Shown: in pieces, positions 1 to 12,202 of the stretch
Position numbering within the stretch: position 1 is the stretch's first letter
Layout of the letters: each line of letters starts with the position of its first letter
NCBI RefSeq assembly: GCF_003149045.1
Contig: NZ_QGDU01000012.1
Coordinates: 1 to 64,000 of the forward strand
DNA length: 64,000 nt
Reading direction: 5' to 3'
Source: Fibrobacter sp. UWR4
Lineage (GTDB): Bacteria > Fibrobacterota > Fibrobacteria > Fibrobacterales > Fibrobacteraceae
Notes under the pieces: generated by a model
Told to the model about the DNA's origin: nothing
Databases searched by the model: none
Seen by the model: the letters and a program-made list of their open reading frames with translations, nothing else
Program-made: the position numbers and the translations under genes

Positions 1-48
1 ATTAAATTTTAGAAAATAGCCCATTTTTTGTTTAATTTAGGCGAAAGT

Positions 49-75
49 CAACAAAAAAGGGTGGCGAAGCCACCC
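49..75 (-). terminator. Rho-independent terminator after trmO
   Basis: A 7-bp stem GGGTGGC/GCCACCC with a GAA loop (59-75) is followed on the minus strand by a T-run (49-58). It lies about 50 nt downstream of the trmO stop. Confidence 0.8.
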
Positions 76-126
76 ACACATGTTGATGAAGAGCCATACT
101 TTTTTATCATAACCGCAAAGTCCCTT

Positions 127-930
127 TTAATCACATATTAAGAAATTCCGATGCAGTTGTTTATCGCCATATTTGTCTTCGGCCCCTTCTAACAGCTCTT
201 CGGGCCTATATCCCGAGCGAATTTGCAAAAGCTGCACCGATTTTGCAGCTTCGTCATAGCTAAAATCAATACGGAACGTACGATAGGACAGTACTCCAGT
301 CCTTGCCTTTTCATCCAGAGTCAGGCGGCGTCTAGTTCCATCGAAAACGCCATTGCTAAAGCCACCACGTCCAAGTTGCACCTGGGCAAAACTCATCAGG
401 TCAAACTCACTATTTTCCGCAATCCACCGTTGTTGCGTCAAAAACCTTTCGGAAGCGGTCACGGCCCACTTTTCTCCCTCCTGTTCGTCAACCCATCCGG
501 CCTTCGCCTCTGGGAACGCATCCGCCATGGGGATGTAGGGTTTTATGTCAAGAATGGGAGTTTCATTGAGTAAGTCGGCCTCGTCCACATGCAAAGTAAG
601 TCCATCTACTTTCAGCAGGCGCACACAACTCAGTCCAATGGAATTCGGGCGGTAGGGGGAACGGCTTGCAAATGTGCCAACACGGTCTTTCCCAGGAGCA
701 GGAACAGGAGGTCGTGTGGTGGGACGCCAACCGTCATTTTCGTGAAACTGAAAGATCACCCAGATTCGTTCGAAGCCGTCAAGATCCCGAAGGGCCATTT
801 CGAAATTACAGCCCGAATTCAGGACTATACGACCGGGGTGTCCCGCAAAAAGGCGGCCCTGTCTCGGTGCATCGTACTTGTATACAGCATCGCCAAAAAA
901 TGTTCCAATGGGTCTTACTTCCATGTGCAT
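127..930 (-). CDS. trmO: tRNA (N6-threonylcarbamoyladenosine37-N6)-methyltransferase TrmO
   Basis: This 267-residue protein matches the TrmO/YaeB (formerly UPF0066) family. The family uses SAM to methylate N6 of t6A37 in threonine tRNAs, a cytoplasmic tRNA modification. Visible family features are the N-terminal EVRPIGTFF strand, the DLDGFERIWVIFQFH segment, and the SAM-pocket sequences FASRSPYRPNSIGLS and DLLNETPILDIKPYIP. The C-terminal half (about 170-267) is the usual accessory domain, so the length is normal. The start is ATG at 930; a second ATG two codons later is possible. There is no clear Shine-Dalgarno, and an AT-rich TCTAAATT abuts the start. The gene diverges from the TAXI lipoprotein gene across about 50 bp. 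Family assignment is confident. Confidence 0.93.
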   Translation of the reverse strand: MHMEVRPIGTFFGDAVYKYDAPRQGRLFAGHPGRIVLNSGCNFEMALRDLDGFERIWVIFQFHENDGWRPTTRPPVPAPGKDRVGTFASRSPYRPNSIGLSCVRLLKVDGLTLHVDEADLLNETPILDIKPYIPMADAFPEAKAGWVDEQEGEKWAVTASERFLTQQRWIAENSEFDLMSFAQVQLGRGGFSNGVFDGTRRRLTLDEKARTGVLSYRTFRIDFSYDEAAKSVQLLQIRSGYRPEELLEGAEDKYGDKQLHRNFLICD

Positions 931-981
931 AATTTAGATTTTCTATCTTTAAAAACGTCCATATTCCACTGGAGTTTTCCA

Positions 982-1998
982 ATGAAACATTCGACTTTCA
1001 CGTTCAAGGCTATCGCCTCCGCCATTTTGGCAACCACAGCCCTAATTCTCGGGGCCTGTGACTCAGAAAAACAGAATATTCGCTTCGGTTCCGGCAACAA
1101 GGGCGGCCTTTATGACAAGTACGCAACCCAGTTTGCCGAATCATTCAACAAGGCAAACGGCAGCATTCAAATCCAGGTGAAGAACACCTCTGGAACTTCC
1201 GCAAACATCCGCCTCATTGAAGAAGGTTTCATAGACTTCGGTATTGTGCAGGCTGATATTCTAAAGGATTACCTGATGCGTAGCCGTATACGTTCCGCCA
1301 TCGCCGCCGTGGCAGGTCTTTACACCGAGTCCATCCAGATTGTGGTGGCTGGCGAAGCCGAAATTAAGTCCGTTGCAGATCTTATCGGCAAGCGGGTCGC
1401 TGTAGGCGAAGAAGAATCCGGCGTACTCCGCAACGCAGAAATCATCCTGGAATCCTACGGAATTTCTATGGACAAGGTGGACGCGAAAAAGCTCAGCTTC
1501 AAGGAATCCGCCGACGCTTTGAAGGCTGGCGAAATCGACGCCTTCTTCTGCACTGCAGGCATTCCCACGCCCTACATTACCGAACTTGCAAACAGCAAGA
1601 ACGTCCGATTGCTTTCCATTGGCGAAGTTGACGCCGCCCGCATCATGGGCATCCATCCGGAACTTACCGCAAGCGTCATTCCCGCAGGCACCTACGCAGG
1701 GCAGGAAGCCGACCTGCAGACCCTTGGGGCAAAGGCTGTTCTCGTAACAAACCAACTGACGGACAACGCTACCGTTGCTAAAGTCGCAGAATCCGCCTTC
1801 GCAAACTCCGCGGCAAGACATGCGTCAACCTCCACCGCAAATTCCGAGGCCGTCGCAGCAGCCCTCGAATTTGCAACCGCCAACGTTCCCGTGGCCTTCC
1901 ATCCGGGCGCAGCAGCACTCTACGCCAGCAAGAACCTTAAAGTAGAAATCGTCGAGCCTCTTCAGGCCCGCGGTCCCATCCCCTCTACAGGCGACTAA
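982..1998 (+). CDS. TAXI-family extracytoplasmic solute-binding lipoprotein
   Basis: The 338-residue product has a signal peptide with lipobox LGAC (Cys26), so it should be a membrane-anchored lipoprotein. The mature part matches the TAXI (TRAP-associated extracytoplasmic immunogenic) solute-binding family: RFGSGNKGGLYDKYATQFAE near the N-terminus, SGTSANIRLIEEG, and a later DLIGKRVAVGEEESG. TAXI proteins studied elsewhere bind small carboxylates such as glutamate or 2-oxoglutarate. The frame stays open upstream to 589, but ATG 982 is chosen because it has GGAG 7 nt upstream and begins the signal peptide. A TATCTTTA element at 944-951 could be the -10. Unlike normal TAXI systems, no DctQ/DctM (fused TRAP permease) gene is adjacent; the next gene, 9 nt downstream, is a GltS symporter. 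Binding of glutamate is inferred from that neighbour. Confidence 0.88.
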   Translation: MKHSTFTFKAIASAILATTALILGACDSEKQNIRFGSGNKGGLYDKYATQFAESFNKANGSIQIQVKNTSGTSANIRLIEEGFIDFGIVQADILKDYLMRSRIRSAIAAVAGLYTESIQIVVAGEAEIKSVADLIGKRVAVGEEESGVLRNAEIILESYGISMDKVDAKKLSFKESADALKAGEIDAFFCTAGIPTPYITELANSKNVRLLSIGEVDAARIMGIHPELTASVIPAGTYAGQEADLQTLGAKAVLVTNQLTDNATVAKVAESAFANSAARHASTSTANSEAVAAALEFATANVPVAFHPGAAALYASKNLKVEIVEPLQARGPIPSTGD

Positions 1999-2007
1999 GG
2001 AGAACTG

Positions 2008-3198
2008 ATGTATAAACTATCCCTCGACATGTACCAGACTTTGGCCCTTGCCGTTGTGGTTCTCGTCATCGGCGCAAACCTCAAGAAGCAAATCAAGTTT
2101 CTGGAAAAATTCTGCATTCCCTCCCCTGTGGTGGGCGGCATCCTGTTCGCCTTCCTTTCCTGCATTCTGTACAAGTTGAATCTTCTAGAATTCCAGTTCG
2201 ACGAAACCCTGAAATCCATCTGCATGATGGTATTCTTTACTTCCGTCGGTTTTAATGCCAACCTGAAGATTCTCAAGAGCGGTGGCGTCAACCTGATTCT
2301 CCTCCTGATTTGCGTCTGTACGCTGATTCTCTGCCAGAATGGTCTTGCCGTTGTTCTCGCCAAGGCACTTCACGTAAGCCCGCTGGTAGGCCTTTCCGCA
2401 GGATCCATCTCCATGGTGGGTGGCCATGGTACTGCAGGAGCTTTCGGCCCCGTCCTTGAAGACTTCGGCATGGAAGGCGCCACCACCCTCTGCACCGCCG
2501 CCGCCACCTTCGGCCTTGTGGCAGGCTCCCTCATGGGCGGCCCGCTAGGGCGTAAACTCATCATCAAGAGAGACCTTCTCAAGACCGCAAACACCGCCCA
2601 CAAGGAAGAACTGAAGGAAGAACAAAGCAAGTACCGCCGTTCCGCACAGCGTTACTCCACCGCCGCATTCCAGCTTTCTATCGCCATGGGTCTTGGAACC
2701 GTCGTTTCCATGCTTCTTTCCAAGACAGGCATGACCTTCCCCGCCTACATCGGATCCATGATCATCGCCGCCATCATGAGAAACATCTGCGAATACAGTA
2801 GCAAGTACGAAGTGCACATGGGTGAAATCCGGGACGTAGGTGGCATCTGTCTTTCCCTGTTCCTGGGCATCGCCATGATTACCCTGAAGCTCTGGCAGTT
2901 GGCCTCCCTGGCCTTGCCCCTGGTGGTACTGCTCTGTGCACAGACTTTGCTCATGTTCCTGTTTGCCTACTTCGTGGTGTTCAACGTTATGGGTAGGGAC
3001 TATGACGCCGCGGTACTTTCCGCAGGTGTTTGCGGATTCGGCATGGGAGCAACCCCTAACGCCATGGCAAACATGCAGGCTATTACCACCAAGTTCGCCC
3101 CGGCCGTAAAGCCCTACCTGCTGGTGCCCATTGTAGGAAGTATGTTCGCAGACTTCATCAACAGCCTCTGCATCACATTCTTCATCAATCAGTTTTAA
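2008..3198 (+). CDS. gltS: Sodium/glutamate symporter (GltS family)
   Basis: This 396-residue, strongly hydrophobic inner-membrane protein matches the GltS (ESS) family of Na+-dependent glutamate carriers. It shows the duplicated glycine-rich reentrant-loop signatures: GSISMVGGHGTAGAFGPVLE in the first half and SAGVCGFGMGATPNAMANMQ in the second. Length is normal for GltS (about 400). The start has AAGGAG 6 nt upstream and lies 9 nt after the stop of the TAXI lipoprotein gene, so the two are almost certainly co-transcribed. A central charged loop (about residues 190-215, lysine/glutamate-rich) separates the two halves. Family membership is confident; that it works with the TAXI protein is inference. 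Confidence 0.93.
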   Translation: MYKLSLDMYQTLALAVVVLVIGANLKKQIKFLEKFCIPSPVVGGILFAFLSCILYKLNLLEFQFDETLKSICMMVFFTSVGFNANLKILKSGGVNLILLLICVCTLILCQNGLAVVLAKALHVSPLVGLSAGSISMVGGHGTAGAFGPVLEDFGMEGATTLCTAAATFGLVAGSLMGGPLGRKLIIKRDLLKTANTAHKEELKEEQSKYRRSAQRYSTAAFQLSIAMGLGTVVSMLLSKTGMTFPAYIGSMIIAAIMRNICEYSSKYEVHMGEIRDVGGICLSLFLGIAMITLKLWQLASLALPLVVLLCAQTLLMFLFAYFVVFNVMGRDYDAAVLSAGVCGFGMGATPNAMANMQAITTKFAPAVKPYLLVPIVGSMFADFINSLCITFFINQF

Positions 3199-3433
3199 TT
3201 AGGGGCTAGGATTTAGGATCTAGGGGTTAGGGGATAGGTTCTAGGGGCTAGGGCCGCAGGAGGCAAGTTGTTTTAGGGGCTAGGGGTTCGAGGTACGCTT
3301 CGCTTGAGGTGTGAGGTCGGAGCTTCGCTCCTAGAGGTTTGATGTACCCTGACCTCTAGTTTCTAATCTCTATACCCTGCACCTTCAAAGGGGGCCTCGC
3401 CCCCGACCTCATAACCTCATACCTCACACCTTT
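3199..3433. repeat. Intergenic repeat block rich in CTAGGGG/TTAGGGG and stem-loops
   Basis: There is no gene in this 235-bp stretch. It begins with degenerate repeats of TAGGGG(C/T) and continues with GC-rich stem-loops such as GGAGC-TTC-GCTCC (3319-3331). Positions 3290-3346 are an inverted copy of 59285-59341. The block ends just before the putative prfA promoter. Blocks of the same composition occur before scpA (59163-59545). Confidence 0.8.
3290..3346. repeat. Left arm of a 57-bp long-distance inverted repeat
   Basis: By eye this segment is the reverse complement of 59285-59341 with a single mismatch (56 of 57). It includes the mini-hairpins CGCTTCGC and GGAGCTTCGCTCC. Confidence 0.85.
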
Positions 3434-3437
3434 TTTC

Positions 3438-3445
3438 TACATTTG
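3438..3445 (+). promoter_or_regulatory. Putative TAnnTTTG -10 element of prfA
   Basis: TACATTTG sits inside TTTTTTCTACATTTG and ends 6 nt before the prfA ATG. It matches the Bacteroidota-type TAnnTTTG core. The identical 15-mer at the same spacing precedes scpA. With normal -10 to start-site geometry, transcription would begin at or next to the ATG. Inferred from motif recurrence only. Confidence 0.4.
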
Positions 3446-3451
3446 CACGCG

Positions 3452-4519
3452 ATGAAAGATAAAGCACGTAAACTCATTGAAAAATACGAAGAACTGGAAT
3501 CCGAACTGGGTAATCCCGATGTTCTCGGTGACCAGGCTCGTTACAACAAGATTCACAAGCAGTACAAGGGTATCGAAAAGGCTGTAATCAAGGCCAAGGA
3601 ATACCTGCAGATGCTTAACGACCAGGAAGAATGGAAGATGGCTCTGGGCGATTCCGACCCGGAAATGGTGGCCATGGCAAAGTCCGAGCTTTCCACCATC
3701 GAAAAGGCACTTCCCGGTCTTACCGACGAATTGCAGATCCTCATGGTTCCCAAGGATCCGTGGGATTTCCGTAACGCCACCATCGAAATCCGCGGTGGTA
3801 CCGGCGGTGACGAATCCGCCCTGTTTGCTGGCGACCTGTTCCGTATGTACCGCGCCTATTGCGAAAAGATGGGCTGGAAGATTACCATCCAGGACCTGAG
3901 CGAAGGTACCGTGGGCGGCTACAAGGAAATTCGCGCCTTTATCGAAGGCGATAGCGTTTACGGCACCCTGAAGTTTGAAAGTGGTGTTCACCGCGTGCAG
4001 CGCGTCCCCGAAACCGAAACCCAGGGCCGCGTGCATACCTCTGCCGCTACAGTCGCAATCCTTCCGGAAGCAGAAGAAGTGGACGTAGAAATCCGCGAAG
4101 CCGATATCCACATGGACACTTACCGCTCCAGCGGCGCTGGCGGTCAGTACATTAACAAGACGGACTCCGCAGTCCGTTTGACCCATATTCCTACAGGCGT
4201 GGTGGTAAGCTGCCAGACAGAACGTTCCCAGCTCCAGAACCGCCTGCACGCTATGGAAATGCTCCGTTCCCGCATCCTTGACGAAGTCATCGCCAAGAAG
4301 GAACGTGAAGAAGCCGCCAGCCGTAAAGCCCTGGTGGGTACCGGCGACCGTTCCGCAAAGATCCGTACTTACAACTACCCCCAGAACCGCGTGACCGATC
4401 ACCGCATCGGCCTCACCCTGTACAACCTGGACCAGGTGGTAGCAGGCGACCTTCAGGAAGTCATCAACGGCCTCCAGATGGCTAACGCTCAGGAAAAGTT
4501 GGGCAAGTTCCAGGCATAG
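3452..4519 (+). CDS. prfA: Peptide chain release factor 1
   Basis: RF1 recognises UAA/UAG and triggers peptide release on the ribosome. The 355-residue protein carries the catalytic GGQ at residues 230-232 ([17 protein letters not shown]) and a PxT-type stop-codon recognition motif in [16 protein letters not shown], which marks it as RF1, not RF2. The N-terminal helical domain and length are standard. ATG 3452 is chosen; an in-frame TTG at 3443 would add only three residues. No Shine-Dalgarno is visible. The gene lies 30 nt upstream of prmC, the methyltransferase that modifies the GGQ glutamine, the common bacterial arrangement, and the two share the terminator at 5510-5537. Confidence 0.97.
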
Positions 4520-4549
4520 TCCTGTCCGCAAGCAAGGAAGGCGCGCGCA

Positions 4550-5461
4550 ATGGCAAACCCGCAAAATGCTCCCATGACGGTTCTGGAAATCCTGAACCGC
4601 ACTAAGGTCTTCTTCGAAAAGAAGGGCGTTCCCGACCCGCTTCTGGACGCCCAGTACATCATCAGTCACGGTCTCAAGATGAAGAACCGTATGGATCTGT
4701 ACTTGAACTTCGAGAAGCCCTTGACCCCTGCGGAGCTGGATGAATTGCGTCCCATGGTAGCGCGACGCGCCAACCGCGAGCCCCTGCAGCACATTATCGG
4801 CGACACAAGCTTCCGCGGCTTTATCATCAAATGCGACCCTCGCGCCCTCATTCCCCGTCCCGAAACTGAGATGCTGGTGGATATGGCCCGCGACCGCCTG
4901 AAGGAAGTGGAAGCCCCCTTTATCGTTGAAATCGGAACTGGCTCCGGCTGCATTTCCATCGCTTCCGCCAAGGAAATTTCTGGCGCCAAGGTTCTAGCCT
5001 GCGACGTTTCTGAAGACGCCCTGACTCTGGCCCGCGAAAACGCTGCCGCCAACGAACTGACCGACGACAAGCTGACCTTTGCCCAAGGCGACCTGCTGGA
5101 AGCCGCTACCGCCGACGCATTGACCGCCGCAGGTCTCGCTGCCGACCAGAAAATCGATTGTCTGATTGCGAACCTCCCCTACATTCCCGACGGCGAAAAA
5201 CCGAACCTCCAGCCCGAGGTGGCAAACTTCGATCCGGCTCTTGCCCTCTTTGGCGGTGCCGACGGTCTCGATCTGGTCCGCAAGCTTTTACAGCAGACAG
5301 AAGGTCGCATGAATTCCGGCGCATCCATCCTTCTGGAAATCGGTTCCGAACAGGGAACCATGCTGGAAGCGGAAGCCTCTAGCTACCCCTGGCTGACCTT
5401 CACCGGCATTCACAAGGACTACTGCGGAAATGTCCGTTTCGTAAGTTACAAGGCGAAATAG
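4550..5461 (+). CDS. prmC: Peptide chain release factor N5-glutamine methyltransferase PrmC
   Basis: PrmC (HemK) methylates the GGQ glutamine of release factors using SAM. The 303-residue protein has the N-terminal five-helix domain (about 1-90) and a Rossmann methyltransferase fold: SAM motif I in VEIGTGSGCISIASA, and LIANLPYIP at the active site. The family normally has NPPY; here the second position is Leu (NLPY), which is also seen in some family members. RALIPRPETEMLVD is a further family hallmark. It follows prfA by 30 nt. Assignment is confident from sequence and context. Confidence 0.95.
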   Translation: MANPQNAPMTVLEILNRTKVFFEKKGVPDPLLDAQYIISHGLKMKNRMDLYLNFEKPLTPAELDELRPMVARRANREPLQHIIGDTSFRGFIIKCDPRALIPRPETEMLVDMARDRLKEVEAPFIVEIGTGSGCISIASAKEISGAKVLACDVSEDALTLARENAAANELTDDKLTFAQGDLLEAATADALTAAGLAADQKIDCLIANLPYIPDGEKPNLQPEVANFDPALALFGGADGLDLVRKLLQQTEGRMNSGASILLEIGSEQGTMLEAEASSYPWLTFTGIHKDYCGNVRFVSYKAK

Positions 5462-5509
5462 CCCGCCCAACTCCGAGCAGCACAAACCTAAAACATTTAC
5501 AAAGTTTTG

Positions 5510-5537
5510 AAGACCGTTTTAAGGACGGTCTTTTTTT
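5510..5537 (+). terminator. Rho-independent terminator of prfA-prmC
   Basis: Stem AAGACCGT/ACGGTCTT followed by a T7 run, about 50 nt after the prmC stop. Confidence 0.88.
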
Positions 5538-5729
5538 AATCTGCGTACTAATTACATCTTTTCTATATGATTCACCATGAATTATATGGCAGGTAAAAAT
5601 TGCAAGTAAATGAAAAAAATTTTTTTAAAGGGCTTATCTTGGCAATCTTTAAGGCTTTCCAAAAGCCTAAATTTAAAGGGATTAGCGATTGGAAGAAAAC
5701 GACACAAATCTGCCAAAAAAAGGAAAAAC

Positions 5730-6845
5730 ATGAAAGTCTCCATTCTTGCTCTATTCGTCGCTTCGCTAGCCCTGCTTTCCGGCTGCGCCAAGACCATGAT
5801 GCTGAACGCCCCCGCCCTTTATGATCAATACCTTACCAGGAGCTACAACCAGCCCCACAACGCATGTTACAACGCGGTCATCAGGACCTTTTACGATAGG
5901 GGCGTCGAACTCACCAAGGCCGACCCCATGGAAGGCAAAATCGTGACAGAAAGACATGTTGCCGCCATCTACGCCAGCTACGGAGTGGTCGGAACAATAT
6001 CTCATCGTTACTATATCGACGTAAAGGGAAACAAGGAGCAATGTACCATCAAAGTCACGAAGTACAAGGCTTGGAAGGGAGACAACGAGGTTCCTGACGT
6101 TCAAGTAGATGCAGTCTACAGTTACTATTGGGCTCCGCTGTTCGGAGGTTTCGAAAGCAATTTCGAAGAGGACGAAGACGAAATCCGTTCTGGCGACGAC
6201 ATTTTGGCGGTCCTCAACCAGCACCGTCCAGAATTTGACGACATACACCAGAAATACATGAAAAAAGCCAAAAAAAGCTTTGAAGGCATCGTCGCGCTGA
6301 AATTCACGATTGCACCCGCCGGAAACATCATCGACATTTCTATCGAGAAGACAACAACTGGAGAACTTGAATTTGACCAGCAAATCAAGAAAGCCGTTAG
6401 CATGTTGAATTTTGGGGCGATTTCTGGAGGCAACAAGACAGTCATCATCCCGATTAGCTTTACAGACAAGGAAACGGATTCCAGTAAGAACGGCGGACGT
6501 AGAGTCAAGGGCGACGGAAGCGGCGGCATCGGGAGCGGTGATGTCAAGGTCACGGGCAACAACCGTATGGCGGCGGATATAATGAAGGTCGTGAAGCAAC
6601 GTACACCCGCACTCAGGAACATCTACAACAAGTACCTGGAAAAGGACCCTGCCTTCGAGGGTAAAGTTGTCTTGAAATTTACCATCGGTACAAACGGAGA
6701 TGTCCTTTCCATATCTATCGTATCATCCTCTACAAACAATGACATATTCGACAAGGAAATCAAGAAAAAAGTGAGTTCCTGGAATTTTGGCAAGGCCGAA
6801 GGTGGCAACACAACAGTAACAATTCCGTTTACCTTCTCAGAATAA
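5730..6845 (+). CDS. Lipoprotein with two AgmX/PglI (TonB-like) C-terminal domains
   Basis: The 371-residue product starts with a signal peptide and lipobox LSGC (Cys19). An N-terminal domain of unknown type (about 25-135) is followed by a short acidic stretch (EEDEDE) and two related domains. Domain one (about 150-250) has FEGIVALKFTIAPAGNIIDI and domain two (about 290-371) has FEGKVVLKFTIGTNGDVLSI and ends in VTIPFTF. These resemble the AgmX/PglI C-terminal domain, a TonB_C-like fold common in Fibrobacterota and Myxococcota. A Gly/Ser-rich linker separates them. ATG 5730 is chosen because it begins the signal peptide; the frame is open further upstream. Normal AgmX proteins have one such domain and often an FHA domain, so the tandem arrangement on a lipoprotein is notable. 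Function is not known; a role in envelope-spanning complexes is a guess. The next gene follows after 11 nt. Confidence 0.8.
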   Translation: MKVSILALFVASLALLSGCAKTMMLNAPALYDQYLTRSYNQPHNACYNAVIRTFYDRGVELTKADPMEGKIVTERHVAAIYASYGVVGTISHRYYIDVKGNKEQCTIKVTKYKAWKGDNEVPDVQVDAVYSYYWAPLFGGFESNFEEDEDEIRSGDDILAVLNQHRPEFDDIHQKYMKKAKKSFEGIVALKFTIAPAGNIIDISIEKTTTGELEFDQQIKKAVSMLNFGAISGGNKTVIIPISFTDKETDSSKNGGRRVKGDGSGGIGSGDVKVTGNNRMAADIMKVVKQRTPALRNIYNKYLEKDPAFEGKVVLKFTIGTNGDVLSISIVSSSTNNDIFDKEIKKKVSSWNFGKAEGGNTTVTIPFTFSE

Positions 6846-6856
6846 AAAGAAACACG

Positions 6857-7684
6857 ATGAAACAATTCCTGAAAGCACTTTTTCTTTTGCTGTTTTGCGC
6901 CTCAGTCGCTTCCGCAGCCTACGTCGCCGTACTCGAGACAAGAATAGACCCGACTATAAAAAAGAAGGTCGAGCTTCCAGACCGTCAGTACCTCACCAAC
7001 GTTTTGCGGGAAGAAGCCATCAGGGAACTTCCCGCGGAGCAAAACTACACCATCATGACTCGCGAGAACATCAGCGCCATGCTCCCGCCGGGCAAAGCCA
7101 TCGAAGACTGCGAAGGTAGTTGCCTTGCGGAAACAGGCAGAAACATCGCAGCCGACTACATTTGCCAAGCTCATGTTGGAAAGTTCGGTTCAAAGCTCAC
7201 AATTTCAGCGGAAATCTACGAAACTGCAGGCAACAAGCTTGTCGCCAGTTTTAACGGACAAGGCGCAAACGTGGAGGCACTTCTGAAGGTCATCAAAGAT
7301 AATGCTCCCGAATTCTTCCGCAAGGTAAAGGATGGCGTTCATGAAATTTCATCAAGTGGCATAACAGACCAAGACGACGAAATCGAAGAGGATGAAGAAG
7401 AGTTCAATCTTAACAAAGTGAACATTTCAGATAATTCTGAATATCGCGAGACTCGCCCTCGTTCCTCTAAGCCCATCGGCAGCGTTCCCTCCACGAACAA
7501 TCCATTAAGAAGCGGTTGGCTTCGCTGGGGAGCAATCATTGGTGGAAGCACATTACTTACAACAGGCATTGTACTTTGGGCTAATGGAACAACCGATATT
7601 GAAGGAGGGCAAACCAAAAGTGCAGTGGGCATCGCCTTGAGCCTCATTGGAGCCGTCGGCATAGGATTCGGATTCATTTTCTAG
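6857..7684 (+). CDS. Secreted/periplasmic protein of unknown function with C-terminal membrane segments
   Basis: I do not recognise a firm family. The 275-residue protein has a clear signal peptide (cleavage near ASAAY, about residue 20). The N-terminal part, with YVAVLETRID, ILREE-like helices, YTIMTRENISAML and a conserved-looking EDCEGSCLAETGRNIAADYI, resembles the CsgG/TolB-N type fold found in many Fibrobacter proteins that assess putative factors by a Cys pair (here CEGSC). An acidic linker (DDEIEEDEEEF, about 170-185) leads to two hydrophobic stretches at the C-terminus (about 220-240 and 255-275) with glycine-rich character. It sits between a TonB_C-like lipoprotein and a putative metallopeptidase lipoprotein, 11 and 5 nt away, so the three are probably one operon. 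Function is unassigned. Confidence 0.7.
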   Translation: MKQFLKALFLLLFCASVASAAYVAVLETRIDPTIKKKVELPDRQYLTNVLREEAIRELPAEQNYTIMTRENISAMLPPGKAIEDCEGSCLAETGRNIAADYICQAHVGKFGSKLTISAEIYETAGNKLVASFNGQGANVEALLKVIKDNAPEFFRKVKDGVHEISSSGITDQDDEIEEDEEEFNLNKVNISDNSEYRETRPRSSKPIGSVPSTNNPLRSGWLRWGAIIGGSTLLTTGIVLWANGTTDIEGGQTKSAVGIALSLIGAVGIGFGFIF

Positions 7685-7689
7685 AGGCC

Positions 7690-9036
7690 TTGAGGTTTAT
7701 TTTGTTCCAATCCTTATCAAAAACACCATTCTATTTTCTTGCGTTCTTTCTTCTATGTTCCTGTTCGAATAACATGGACATGGACGACGACATCCTGGAC
7801 GAATATCTTATAAGGCAAACATCCTTCTATATCGACAAGACGGACAATGAATATCTAGAACTGTTATCCCAGTCCTTTGGCATTAGCAAGGACAAGGTAA
7901 GAAAGGTCCAGAAGCACATCATTTCCAAGAAGAACCAGGCCACGGTGGAGCGGGATTACGACCGTGCCATCATCCAGAAAATTGAGGCACTCAAAAAATC
8001 CAACAAGGACGACCGCCGTCTAGATTTCGTATATAACGTCCTGGCTCCATATCTGAGCGCCCTCAGCCGAAACGAACCCCTGCTGGTAAAGGAAAGCAAT
8101 CTTTTTCAGGAACAGGACGTTGTTGAACTTTTTGAGAAATTCTTCCCCGGCGGTGGCAATAGTTTTGCAGATTTGGTTTCGTCGGCACACGGTTATTTTA
8201 AAGGAGAATACTTCAACATCAACAAACAGCACAACGTGAATAAGGTCCTGATGTCCTACGGCCTGCTGCTGGATTTTGAAATTGAATCCTGCGCCAACGT
8301 CATGCAGATTCAAGATACCATTCTCACCCCCATGGCCTATAAGGGCGATTCTGTGGCAGTGCTGAAAACAAGGCGCATCATTCCGGGCCTGCTGCCGTCA
8401 AAAATCGGCTACAGCTCTGCCGCCACCTATTTCGTAATCGTAATTGACGATGCCGTAGAAAAACAGGTCAAGAAATTCACCAGGGAGCTGAAGGCCGATT
8501 TCAGCAAGTATGGATCAAAGAATGACCTCTACAATAGATATTGGCGGCTAATCGGTTTACCCAAGTTCGATATATTTAAGGCCAACGAAATCTATTCCAA
8601 GCTCCTGGAAAAGGATTTCGGCGGTAAGTCAAGAGAGTTTATCAAGTACGCCCAGGAAATGGAGACCGTCATTCACGAGGCGAAACATCAGGTGGACGGC
8701 ATTGAACATCCCGAGTTGACGCTCAACCTTGATATCGAATTTTCCGCCCACGTGACTGCTGCGATTTTTAGCCCGGCACCCCACGTGGCACTGCTCTCGG
8801 CGATACAGCGCATGGACAACTTCGGGATTTCCCTGGGAGACACGACCAGCTACAATGTTTCCAGACAGCTTTGGGAACTGGCCATCAAGTCGGCAGAAGA
8901 CTCCACCTACTCCGAGCAGCAACTGAAAAACGACCTGATTGAAATTTACAACAGCTACCGGACAATCCGGGAAAAACAAAGCTTCGAGAAACTTGACGAT
9001 TTCCGGGATCAAGTCGTCTCAAAATTACTCAAATAA
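7690..9036 (+). CDS. Lipoprotein with HExxH metallopeptidase-like motif
   Basis: The 448-residue product has a signal peptide ending in LLCSC (Cys25), so it is probably lipid-anchored. The middle is helical and charged with no family I recognise. Residues 329-333 read HEAKH, an HExxH zinc motif, in METVIHEAKHQVDGIEHPE; seventeen residues after the second His comes EFSAH (Glu350), placed where gluzincins have their third zinc ligand. The motif pair supports a zinc metallopeptidase, but no substrate can be named. A TTG at 7690 is taken as start because AGAGG lies 5 nt upstream and it starts the signal peptide; it is 5 nt past the previous stop. The 3' end overlaps the convergent nrdG by 12 bp. 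Confidence 0.72.
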   Translation: MRFILFQSLSKTPFYFLAFFLLCSCSNNMDMDDDILDEYLIRQTSFYIDKTDNEYLELLSQSFGISKDKVRKVQKHIISKKNQATVERDYDRAIIQKIEALKKSNKDDRRLDFVYNVLAPYLSALSRNEPLLVKESNLFQEQDVVELFEKFFPGGGNSFADLVSSAHGYFKGEYFNINKQHNVNKVLMSYGLLLDFEIESCANVMQIQDTILTPMAYKGDSVAVLKTRRIIPGLLPSKIGYSSAATYFVIVIDDAVEKQVKKFTRELKADFSKYGSKNDLYNRYWRLIGLPKFDIFKANEIYSKLLEKDFGGKSREFIKYAQEMETVIHEAKHQVDGIEHPELTLNLDIEFSAHVTAAIFSPAPHVALLSAIQRMDNFGISLGDTTSYNVSRQLWELAIKSAEDSTYSEQQLKNDLIEIYNSYRTIREKQSFEKLDDFRDQVVSKLLK

Positions 9037-9591
9037 ATCCGGGTGTTCCTGCATCTCATCCAGCTGGATCTGGTGGAGAACGACGCGGCCTTCGGAAAGG
9101 CTCATCTGGACATCAATCAGGCGCTGGTTCTTAGAACCACGGAACTTCAAGTCCAGGCAGCGCTGTGCCAGCACAAACGGGCCATCCACAAGGATATCTG
9201 CAAAAGTCAAAAGCTCCAGGCATTCCGGCATCTGGTCCTTCATGGACATCAGGCGTTCATACGTAAAGCCCGAAAAAATCACCAGGTTCAATCCCATTTC
9301 CTTGATTTCGCGGGCCAGCGGCACAAGGGCCTTGGCCTGGAACATGGGGTCCCCCCCACTTAAGGTAACACCATCCAGCAAGGGATTCTCCTGGATCATC
9401 TCAAGAAGTTCCTTGAGGGAAATCAGGTGACCGCCCTCAAAGTCGTGAGTCTGCGGATTGTGACAGCCGGGGCAGTGATGAGAACAGCCCTGAGTAAAAA
9501 TGGAAAAGCGGATGCCCGGGCCGTCCACGAAGGATTCCGGCTCTACACCCGCTATACGTAACTGAATATCATCAAAACTTTGAAAGTTCAT
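9025..9591 (-). CDS. nrdG: Anaerobic ribonucleotide reductase-activating protein NrdG
   Basis: NrdG is the radical SAM activase that installs the glycyl radical on class III ribonucleotide reductase. The 188-residue protein shows the CxxxCxxC cluster motif (Cys36, Cys40, Cys43 in FTQGCSHHCPGCHNPQTHD) preceded by SFVDGPGIRFSIF, and the SAM-binding GGDP in VTLSGGDPMFQ. Length is typical of NrdG (150-200). It is the last gene of the operon nrdD, small glycyl-radical protein, nrdG. The start ATG at 9591 has no obvious Shine-Dalgarno. Its 3' end overlaps the convergent lipoprotein gene. Confidence 0.95.
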   Translation of the reverse strand: MNFQSFDDIQLRIAGVEPESFVDGPGIRFSIFTQGCSHHCPGCHNPQTHDFEGGHLISLKELLEMIQENPLLDGVTLSGGDPMFQAKALVPLAREIKEMGLNLVIFSGFTYERLMSMKDQMPECLELLTFADILVDGPFVLAQRCLDLKFRGSKNQRLIDVQMSLSEGRVVLHQIQLDEMQEHPDLFE

Positions 9592-9617
9592 TTTTCTCGT
9601 ACCAGTTTTACAGCTGA

Positions 9618-9636
9618 TCCTGAACCAAGTTCAGGA
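9618..9636. repeat. Short palindromic element in the nrd operon
   Basis: TCCTGAAC-CAA-GTTCAGGA is a perfect 8-bp inverted repeat with a 3-nt loop, located between the small nrdD segment and nrdG. It resembles the dispersed TCATCCTGAAC-type palindromes found in many genomes. In mRNA it could stabilise the 3' end of the upstream cistrons. Confidence 0.7.
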
Positions 9637-9652
9637 TGACATTCAGGGGAAA

Positions 9653-9814
9653 TTAGTTTTCAGCACAGTCACAACCGTGCTTCACGCGGTCATTGACTTC
9701 AGCAAGCTTTGCATTGTTGAAACGATCCACTGTACCTACCAGGTAACCAGTGATGCGGCGGATGCGTTCAAAGCCAACGCCTTCTCCGTACTGGGACTTT
9801 TCCTTATCAGACAT
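9653..9814 (-). CDS. Detached glycyl-radical segment of anaerobic ribonucleotide reductase (split NrdD)
   Basis: This 53-codon gene encodes a protein whose core, FERIRRITGYLVGTVDRF followed by AEVNDRVKH, is what ordinarily forms the extreme C-terminus of NrdD. RITGY is the glycyl-radical motif; the radical glycine would be Gly23. The adjacent 776-residue NrdD lacks this segment. The small gene has its own start: AAGGAG lies 7 nt upstream of the ATG and 57 nt separate it from the nrdD stop, so it is not a simple frameshift. The C-terminus GCDCAEN adds a Cys-X-Cys. It would have to associate with NrdD and be activated by NrdG, much as YfiD-type spare radical domains work with pyruvate formate-lyase (analogy, not evidence). 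Small annotated NrdD fragments exist in databases, but I know of no characterised example. Confidence 0.88.
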   Translation of the reverse strand: MSDKEKSQYGEGVGFERIRRITGYLVGTVDRFNNAKLAEVNDRVKHGCDCAEN

Positions 9815-9871
9815 TTTTCACTCCTTGACTGTGACTTTGTCTATTGTCTTTTTGATCTATAAAAAATTCTA

Positions 9872-12202
9872 TTAGCGAATACCGAGGAATGCAGGCATAC
9901 CCGGGAACTTCTTGCGGAGTTCCTCGATCTTCTGCGGGTCGATGGAATGACCTTCCTTACGGCCGCAACGGGGGCACACATCGTTAATCACGCCAACATA
10001 ACCGCAAACCGGGTCGCGGTCCACCGGATGGTTGATGGAGCCATAGCCGATGCCGGACTTTGCCATGAAACGCACGATCTTTTCGAATGCATCCAGGTTC
10101 TGGGTCGGGTCGCCATCCATTTCGATGTAGCTGATATGGCCAGCATTGGTGAGGGCGTGGTACGGAGCTTCCAGTTCGATCTTCTTAAACGCGCTGATCT
10201 TGTAGTACACCGGCACATGGAAAGAGTTGGTGTAGTAATCACGATCGGTAACGCCCGGAATGATGCCGAAGCGCTTCTTGTCCATGCGGAGGAAGCGACC
10301 GGAAAGGCCTTCTGCCGGAGTTGCAAACAGGGTGATGTTCACACCGAGACGCTTGGATTCGCTGTCGCAGAAGTCGCGCATGTGCTGGATGATTTCCAGG
10401 CCCAGGCGCTGAGAGGATTCGGATTCACCGTGATGCTTACCGGTAAGGGCCACCAAAGTTTCAGCAAGACCGATGAAACCGATAGAAAGAGTACCGTCCT
10501 TCAGGACTTCGCGAACTTCGTCATTCCAGCCCAGCTTTTCGGAGCCAATCCAGATACCCTGACCCATGAGGAAGGGGAAGTTCTTCACGCGCTTACGGCT
10601 CTGGACTTCCATACGTTCCAGCAGCTGATCACGGACAAGAGCCAGCATACGGTCCAGTTCCTTGTAGAACAGGTCCAAAGACTTCATCTTGAGAGCGATG
10701 CGCGGAAGGTTAATGGAAGTGAAGCTCAAGTTACCGCGACCGAAAGTGATTTCGTGGTCGGGACGAGCGGAGTTACCAATAACGCGGGTACGGCAGCCCA
10801 TGTAGGCGATTTCAGTTTCGGGACGGCCCGGCTTGTAGTAAGCAGCATTGTACGGTGCATCCATGAAGCTGAAGTTGGGGAACAAGCGCTTTGCGGAAAC
10901 GCGGCAAGCAAGCTTGAACAAATCGTAGTTGGGATCTTCAGGGTTCAGGTTCACACCAGCCTTCACGCGGAGGATCTGAATCGGGAAGATTGCGGTTTCG
11001 CCACCACCCAAGCCTTCTTCTGTGGTAAGGAGCAAATTGCGGATTACCATGCGGGCTTCAGGATCGGTGCACATACCATAGTTGATGCTGGAGAACGGAG
11101 TCTGAGCACCGGCGCGGCTGTGCATAGAGTTCAGGTTGTGAACGAAGGCTTCCATTGCCTGGAAGGTAGCCTTATCGGTTTCTTCGTAAGCCTGCTTTTC
11201 AGCAAACTTCTGAGCACCCATGACGATTTCGGTAGAGAAAGTCTTGGAGAGTTCGCGAGCTTCGGTCTGGACAAACTTTTCGTTAGGAACGAGAGTTGCA
11301 ACCATGCCCATTTCGAACATTTCGTCGTGAAGCTTCTTGACGATGGGGCGGAGTTCTTCTTCTTCCTTACCGGTGAGAAGAATCAAGGCCTTCACCATGT
11401 TGTTCAGGTAAGCCTTGCGGTAAGTGATGCGAACGCCGTCGGCCATGGCATAGTCGAAGTTAGGAACAGCCTGGCCACCGTGCTGATCGTTCTGGTTGGA
11501 CTGAATAGCGATAGCTGCGAGAGCTGCGTAGCTGCGGATGTCCTTGGGTTCACGGAGATGGCCGTGACCGGTATTGAAGCCGTTCTTGAAAAGCTTGATC
11601 AAGTCGATCTGGCAGCAGGTCATGGTGAGGGCGTAGAAGTCCAAGTCATGAATATGGATATCGCCTTCGGAATGAGCACGGCTGTGTTCCGGCTTCAGCA
11701 TCATCATGGTGTAGAAGTGCTTTGCAGATTCGGAACCGTACTTGAGCATGGTACCCATGGCGGTGTCGCCATCGATGTTTGCGTTTTCACGCTTCAGGTC
11801 GGATTCCTTGGCGGAGCTGAAGGTGATGTCGCGGAGAGTGTGCATGAGGCGAGTATTGACTTCGCGGACGCGAGTACGTTCTGCACGATACAGAATGTAA
11901 TTCTTGGCGGTGTCACCGTAACCGGCTTCGGTCAAAGCCTTTTCTACAGCGTCCTGGATGTCTTCAATTTCGGGCTTGGTCTTGCCTTCTGCTTCCAGAC
12001 GGCCAACTGCATAAGCAGCGACCTTGAGAGCGGTACTGCTAAGAATGTCTTCACCACCGAGAAGGTCCATCTGAGACTGGGAAGCCTTAATTTGTTCTTC
12101 AAGTTCGCCGGAGGCTCTAAAAGCCTTGATGATGGCGTCGGAAATCTTCTCAATGTTGAACGGCATCTCACGGCCGTCACGCTTCTTCACGGTAAAGATC
12201 AT
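9872..12202 (-). CDS. nrdD: Anaerobic ribonucleoside-triphosphate reductase large chain, lacking its glycyl-radical tail
   Basis: Class III ribonucleotide reductase makes dNTPs without oxygen. The 776-residue protein begins with an ATP-cone (IFTVKKRDGREMPFNIEKIS, about 1-95) for allosteric control, followed by the ten-stranded barrel with family segments such as GDIHIHDLD, HSRAGAQTPFSSINYG and GNLSFTSINLPRIA. The C-terminus reads NHPVDRDPVCGYVG and DVCPRCGRKEGH and then diverges, ending in PGMPAFLGIR. Normally the zinc ribbon is followed by an RxxGY glycyl-radical loop; here that loop is missing and is found in the next gene (9653-9814). The first expected zinc Cys (RCPVCGY in relatives) is Asp here, leaving three Cys. 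ATG 12202 has AAGGA 7 nt upstream; GTG 12205 is an alternative. Upstream lie two NrdR-like boxes. Confidence 0.93.
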   Translation of the reverse strand: MIFTVKKRDGREMPFNIEKISDAIIKAFRASGELEEQIKASQSQMDLLGGEDILSSTALKVAAYAVGRLEAEGKTKPEIEDIQDAVEKALTEAGYGDTAKNYILYRAERTRVREVNTRLMHTLRDITFSSAKESDLKRENANIDGDTAMGTMLKYGSESAKHFYTMMMLKPEHSRAHSEGDIHIHDLDFYALTMTCCQIDLIKLFKNGFNTGHGHLREPKDIRSYAALAAIAIQSNQNDQHGGQAVPNFDYAMADGVRITYRKAYLNNMVKALILLTGKEEEELRPIVKKLHDEMFEMGMVATLVPNEKFVQTEARELSKTFSTEIVMGAQKFAEKQAYEETDKATFQAMEAFVHNLNSMHSRAGAQTPFSSINYGMCTDPEARMVIRNLLLTTEEGLGGGETAIFPIQILRVKAGVNLNPEDPNYDLFKLACRVSAKRLFPNFSFMDAPYNAAYYKPGRPETEIAYMGCRTRVIGNSARPDHEITFGRGNLSFTSINLPRIALKMKSLDLFYKELDRMLALVRDQLLERMEVQSRKRVKNFPFLMGQGIWIGSEKLGWNDEVREVLKDGTLSIGFIGLAETLVALTGKHHGESESSQRLGLEIIQHMRDFCDSESKRLGVNITLFATPAEGLSGRFLRMDKKRFGIIPGVTDRDYYTNSFHVPVYYKISAFKKIELEAPYHALTNAGHISYIEMDGDPTQNLDAFEKIVRFMAKSGIGYGSINHPVDRDPVCGYVGVINDVCPRCGRKEGHSIDPQKIEELRKKFPGMPAFLGIR

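Follow-up and report, generated by a model that had tools for sequence, protein, structure and literature searches.

For a long time, the TRAP and TTT systems were the only known forms of binding-protein-dependent secondary transport (PMC12344293). In August 2025, Jaques et al. described TAXI-GltS as a new class, in which the functional coupling of the two proteins is putative (PMC12344293). In Bordetella pertussis, the gene for the TAXI protein BP0403 adjoins gltS, and the protein binds L-glutamate at 180 nM; that paper also already reported TAXI genes of conventional size next to gltS as well as fusions of TAXI with GltS. A text search of the literature for TAXI together with GltS found this as the only paper on the subject, and its main text does not name Fibrobacter. 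The initial annotation of the locus studied here assumed that TAXI proteins normally serve DctQM TRAP permeases; service to TRAP is indeed the rule, but the usual partner is a fused permease and not a pair of separate proteins, DctQ and DctM (PMC12344293).

We analyzed a stretch of 64,000 nucleotides from Fibrobacter sp. UWR4 (hereafter the window), which begins where its contig begins. A gene for a TAXI-family substrate-binding lipoprotein of 338 amino acids (982–1998, forward strand), conventional in size and without an extra N-terminal domain, is followed after 9 nt on the same strand by a gene for a GltS sodium/glutamate symporter of the ESS family (2008–3198, 396 amino acids). The TAXI protein scored 222.6 bits against NCBIfam TIGR02122 (TRAP_TAXI; cut-off 84.35) and 160 bits against Pfam NMT1_3 (PF16868), with the TAXI domain beginning at residue 35, and the GltS protein scored 362.7 bits against the gltS equivalog model TIGR00210 (cut-off 310.75) and 384 bits against Pfam PF03616. 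The signal peptide and lipobox (982–1059, forward strand) end in LILGAC, of which Cys26 is predicted from the sequence to be lipidated; conservation of this cysteine is at least 90% among 52 TAXI relatives. The listed TAXI open reading frame opens further upstream, at 589; the start at 982 is correct by homology, 10 Fibrobacteraceae relatives aligning from M1. The profile matches, the predicted lipobox and the coordinates thus confirm the claim that a lipid-anchored TAXI gene lies directly ahead of a GltS-family carrier.

The TAXI stop codon overlaps the ribosome-binding site of gltS, TAAGGAG (1996–2002, forward strand), and this overlap is exact in nine of the 10 Fibrobacteraceae loci compared, the tenth having TAAGGGAG; the arrangement suggests that translation of TAXI and gltS is coupled. 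The upstream neighbor of the TAXI gene is trmO, which is divergent, and gltS is followed by prfA and then prmC, the last two named from a reading of the window translations and not from a family search. An Rfam search of window positions 1–8000 gave no match, and a scan for promoters and terminators returned counts close to the shuffled expectation, with no clear promoter found for the TAXI-gltS pair. The intergenic stretch between gltS and prfA (3198–3293) contains four imperfect 22-nt direct repeats resembling TTTAGGATCTAGGGGTTAGGGG.

As the text accompanying Fig. 6B and 6E of PMC12344293 describes them, conventional TAXI-GltS loci are like this one, with TAXI beside gltS and no TRAP permease. 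The B. pertussis pair BP0402–BP0403 likewise combines a TAXI lipoprotein and GltS without a TRAP permease and has the same two key binding residues, but gltS comes first and the TAXI protein, of 503 amino acids, carries an extra N-terminal and helical domain. The TAXI protein of the window, at 338 amino acids, does not belong to this elongated BP0403 type, which is defined by extra N-terminal globular and helical domains and a length of about 500 amino acids. The TAXI-TRAP system VcGluP–VcGluQM is similar in binding-protein family, fold and glutamate-binding residues, whereas its partner is a fused TRAP permease, which is absent from the Fibrobacter sp. UWR4 genome. E. coli GltS (ESS family, TCDB 2.A.27) shares the carrier family and the expected sodium coupling but has no adjacent binding-protein gene. 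Adjacency, the absence of a TRAP membrane component and residues equivalent to Y45 and Q93 of VcGluP place the window locus in the TAXI-GltS class.

The genome (completeness 99.99%) encodes one TAXI protein and one GltS. A search of the whole genome with the DctM family alone found no TRAP permease above the cut-off, and the claim that the pair goes without one accordingly held genome-wide. The sole DctM match, at 20 bits and below the family cut-off, was rejected as a TRAP permease and is an NhaC-type antiporter. Beside the TAXI gene stands gltS and not a fused TRAP permease (TIGR02123). Orphan TRAP binding proteins exist (PMC12344293), and the TAXI protein might serve another permease elsewhere in the genome, its place beside gltS being incidental; however, with no such permease over the cut-off in a nearly complete genome and with the adjacency conserved across phyla, as described below, this explanation is hardly credible.

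Strong GltS proteins (360 bits or more) were found in 12 of 167 Fibrobacterota genomes, and in 11 of these 12 TAXI lies directly upstream of gltS. All 12 gltS genes, which come from two genera, stand before prfA–prmC with trmO on the other side, so that the order trmO / TAXI-gltS / prfA-prmC is syntenic across Fibrobacteraceae; the nearest relatives are from Fibrobacter. In the exception, the Fibrobacter genome G083 (approximately 70% complete; locus L050), a gene for a lipoprotein with a Fib_succ_major domain (2340–3386) occupies the TAXI place between trmO and gltS, and the lone gltS is under strong purifying selection (dN/dS ~0.05). Five other Fibrobacterota genomes encode a TAXI protein of at least 100 bits, four of them beside a fused TRAP permease (604–671 bits); in the fifth, G020, the gene is on a 4-kb contig and the permease is not in view. 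Among the searched Fibrobacter genomes the pair occurs in a minority and always at the same locus, which points either to frequent loss or to a gain followed by spread within the genus.

Outside Fibrobacterota, we compared the best 80 GltS relatives in named genomes, which are mostly from gut Bacillota. TAXI is directly upstream of gltS in 75 of them, as a separate gene in 57 (median gap 15 nt) and fused in frame in 18, and five are without TAXI. Conservation of the neighborhood, on which the initial proposal of a paired transporter depended, is thus evident both in Fibrobacterota and among the nearest relatives elsewhere. GltS proteins of lower similarity are mostly without a TAXI neighbor: in a class sample around a Blautia genome (245 genomes), TAXI adjoined only 3 of 16 full-length GltS genes, indicating that the pairing is specific to a GltS lineage. 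In a quick GltS tree, in which L119 and L173 are duplicate genomes, 85 TAXI-linked rows and five nested TAXI-less rows formed one clade (90 of 102 rows, SH-aLRT 100), and 12 lone GltS, including that of E. coli, fell outside it. The Fibrobacteraceae rows made up a single group inside this Bacillota-rich clade, which suggests that they may stem from an old transfer out of gut Bacillota. Viral contigs searched for GltS relatives contained none.

The Lachnospiraceae fusions described in PMC12344293, with TAXI at the N-terminal and GltS at the C-terminal, belong to the same GltS lineage as the window; the Lachnoanaerobaculum saburreum fusion (L124) lies within it. Compared with that description, our set has more fusions and more taxa (18 of the 80 best loci), extending to Oscillospiraceae and others. 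In a Lawsonibacter contig (L133), an in-frame fusion (4993–7188) is followed approximately 1.3 kb downstream by a conventional TAXI gene with a fused TRAP permease (8482–11579). Selenomonadaceae loci (L085, 3937–5958; L086, 3946–5958; also L299 and L309) have two diverged TAXI genes in tandem ahead of one gltS, an arrangement in which one carrier would seem to serve a pair of binding proteins.

These comparisons bear on whether GltS is an ordinary stand-alone sodium/glutamate symporter with which TAXI is merely co-expressed, serving for instance to sense glutamate or as a reserve binder. No TAXI gene adjoins gltS of E. coli or 13 of the 16 full-length GltS genes in the class sample, and GltS has outlived TAXI in five lineages of the discovery set and in one more found later. 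TAXI proteins over the cut-off are absent from the genomes of L072, L093, L112 and L149 (that of L072 being G083, only about 70% complete), and the genome of L115 has one elsewhere. Because these TAXI-less relatives keep GltS, with purifying selection retained in the one lineage tested, that of G083, GltS may work without TAXI. A mere co-regulated sensor, however, explains neither the pairing in 75 of the 80 best relatives nor the 18 single-chain fusions, and one GltS residue, D152, was lost with TAXI in five lineages (see below). We therefore regard an independent carrier with a co-expressed binder as quite improbable.

A second partnership was found in another phylum with large genomes, reached via genome G169, where an elongated TAXI gene comes after 5 of 18 full-length GltS genes. 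The encoded proteins (L234–L238) resemble that of Bordetella in being elongated, with about 490 to 510 amino acids for those with a clear start, and these BP0403-like genes pair with a separate GltS lineage in trees built without BP0402 and BP0403 themselves. The hypothesis that all TAXI-linked GltS form one lineage was rejected, since enforcing it cost 95 log-likelihood units (AU p = 0.00089) on a quick tree without bootstrap, in which L112 and L201 are duplicate genomes and six nested TAXI-less rows were picked after the tree had been seen. For the TAXI tree, from which L252 was left out as a long branch, a single origin was not rejected (p = 0.845), and the tree that held the group together scored even better. 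With a single lineage rejected for GltS but a single origin not rejected for TAXI, TAXI may thus have been recruited twice, or its GltS partner may have been swapped.

In VcGluP, the affinity falls 213-fold without Y45 and 990-fold without Q93 (PMC11574862). Alignment to 8s4j equates these glutamate-binding residues with Tyr44 (codon 1111–1113, forward strand) and Gln90 (codon 1249–1251, forward strand) of the window TAXI protein. Both are present in all 42 GltS-linked conventional TAXI rows; in TRAP-linked rows the equivalent of Y44 occurs in 17 of 18 and that of Q90 in 14 of 18. In addition, T191 aligns with the glutamate-contacting Thr of TtGluBP. The AlphaFold2 model of the TAXI protein (pLDDT 91.7) has the glutamate-bound TAXI structures 8u79, 1us4, 9ibo and 8s4j as its nearest solved folds. 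The GltS model (pLDDT 87.6) is closest to AspT and CitS (Z 21–23) and has a predicted two-domain elevator-type fold with two re-entrant helices, and hence fits an elevator carrier, although a fold shows no function; its sodium coupling would follow from that of the family.

The binding residues also bear on the possibility that TAXI alters the imported substrate, for instance to glutamine, pyroglutamate, some small derivative of glutamate or a different acid, instead of raising the affinity for L-glutamate. Glutamine and pyroglutamate are weaker ligands of VcGluP (PMC11574862), another TAXI protein binds 2-oxoglutarate (PMC12344293), and the tandem TAXI genes before one gltS in Selenomonadaceae would suit two ligands. 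By contrast, Y44 and Q90, which are the strongest determinants of glutamate binding, are invariant in the 42 rows, T191 occupies a glutamate-contacting position, and the carrier matches the GltS equivalog model TIGR00210. A change of substrate is thus unlikely, with a small but real chance of being correct, and L-glutamate or a close analogue remains the preferred ligand.

We scanned 161 GltS columns that are each at least 95% conserved in 66 unfused partners. Position 152 was D in 66 of 66 unfused TAXI partners, in 9 of 18 fusions and in none of the five TAXI-less GltS of the discovery set, and it was the sole column of the 161 altered in all five (G, Q, S, N, G). Because this pattern came from scanning many conserved columns, a permutation was run, and the column maximum never reached 5 in 20,000 runs. 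In the Fibrobacter exception G083, only D152 was changed among the 161 columns. D152 had been just under the threshold of a first screen (columns at least 90% conserved in linked rows including fusions) and stood out once the fusions were separated from the unfused partners. Asp152 (codon 2461–2463, forward strand), a candidate TAXI docking residue, terminates the first re-entrant helix (residues 139–152 in the GltS model) on its outer side. Members of the family have a published N-out topology that includes two re-entrant helices (PMC8396727); the charge bias of the GltS loops agrees with it, and D152 therefore faces outward, to the side on which TAXI is expected.

We then used a check set of 43 in-clade GltS with at least 300 aligned residues, of which 22 had already been used and 21 were new. 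All 18 new sequences with a separate TAXI, including two tandem-TAXI loci, have D152 (84 of 84 combined). The new TAXI-less L319 has N at this position; sharing 95% identity with L115, it does not count as an independent case. L290 is a counterexample, being TAXI-less with D152 kept; TAXI was not found within the 16 kb read around its gltS, and L300, which ends 256 bases upstream, was set aside. The idea that D152 marks pairing in GltS as a whole was rejected, since 4 of 16 distant lone GltS have D there; on this ground and that of L290 it is not a strict marker, nor is it conserved in the GltS partners of elongated-type TAXI. At the L290 locus of Selenomonadaceae (2756–3931; L332, 8557–9732), a 391-amino-acid open reading frame with weak similarity, below the cut-off, to the EcoRII C-terminal domain takes the TAXI place beside gltS, and the adjoining open reading frame reads like a DNA methyltransferase.

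On the TAXI side, Arg77 (codon 1210–1212, forward strand) is a candidate contact to GltS. In counts that leave out TAXI fragments of fewer than 200 residues (L090, L108 and L114), this residue is R in 74 of 74 TAXI proteins whose GltS bears D152 and in 5 of the 8 whose GltS lacks it; the Fisher test (p = 0.0006), which omitted the gap row L125, makes no correction for kinship. Among 22 near-invariant TAXI columns, only R77 changes in more than one of the D152-less rows, and it is rare in TRAP-linked TAXI (2 of 17). The changes sit in one sub-lineage of fusions, and the independent R77-D152 events are thus few. This correlation makes it possible, at less than even confidence, that TAXI docks at GltS D152, perhaps via R77. 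The TAXI C-terminal tail, which reads PSTGD in Fibrobacter and ends in SQD or GQD in many proteins from Selenomonadaceae and other groups, was rejected as a general docking signal because it is missing from many TAXI proteins that have a GltS partner in Ruminococcus and Lachnospiraceae.

In our view, TAXI and GltS very probably form a single secondary transporter that depends on its binding protein and takes up L-glutamate or a close analogue. This reading draws on the computed pairing, coupling signal, synteny, lineage-wide conservation, kept binding residues and elevator-type fold, and takes the likely ligand, sodium coupling and delivery from TAXI to GltS from published relatives. The lipid-anchored TAXI protein would capture the ligand with high affinity outside the inner membrane and hand it to GltS, which would then move it into the cell together with sodium by an elevator mechanism. 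In this lineage the docking site of TAXI may lie around Asp152 on the outside of GltS, with Arg77 of TAXI as its possible counterpart, a contact that an in-frame fusion could replace. A broader reading, which we hold as doubtful, is that the Fibrobacter and Bacillota form was assembled separately, on a GltS lineage distinct from that of the elongated form, with a D152-R77 docking that decays upon loss of TAXI and is dispensable after fusion.

The different transporter architecture that the initial annotation proposed is real but not new, having been published in 2025 (PMC12344293); the idea is sound, and the window locus is a further case of the published class. What is added here is comparative evidence on this GltS lineage and a testable candidate contact. 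TAXI-GltS would be the third case of binding-protein-dependent secondary transport, after TRAP and TTT, the feeding of GltS by TAXI being putative. The natural losses of TAXI and the natural fusions in this lineage amount to a comparative experiment, and GltS D152 and TAXI R77 are two named residues for a simple mutant assay.
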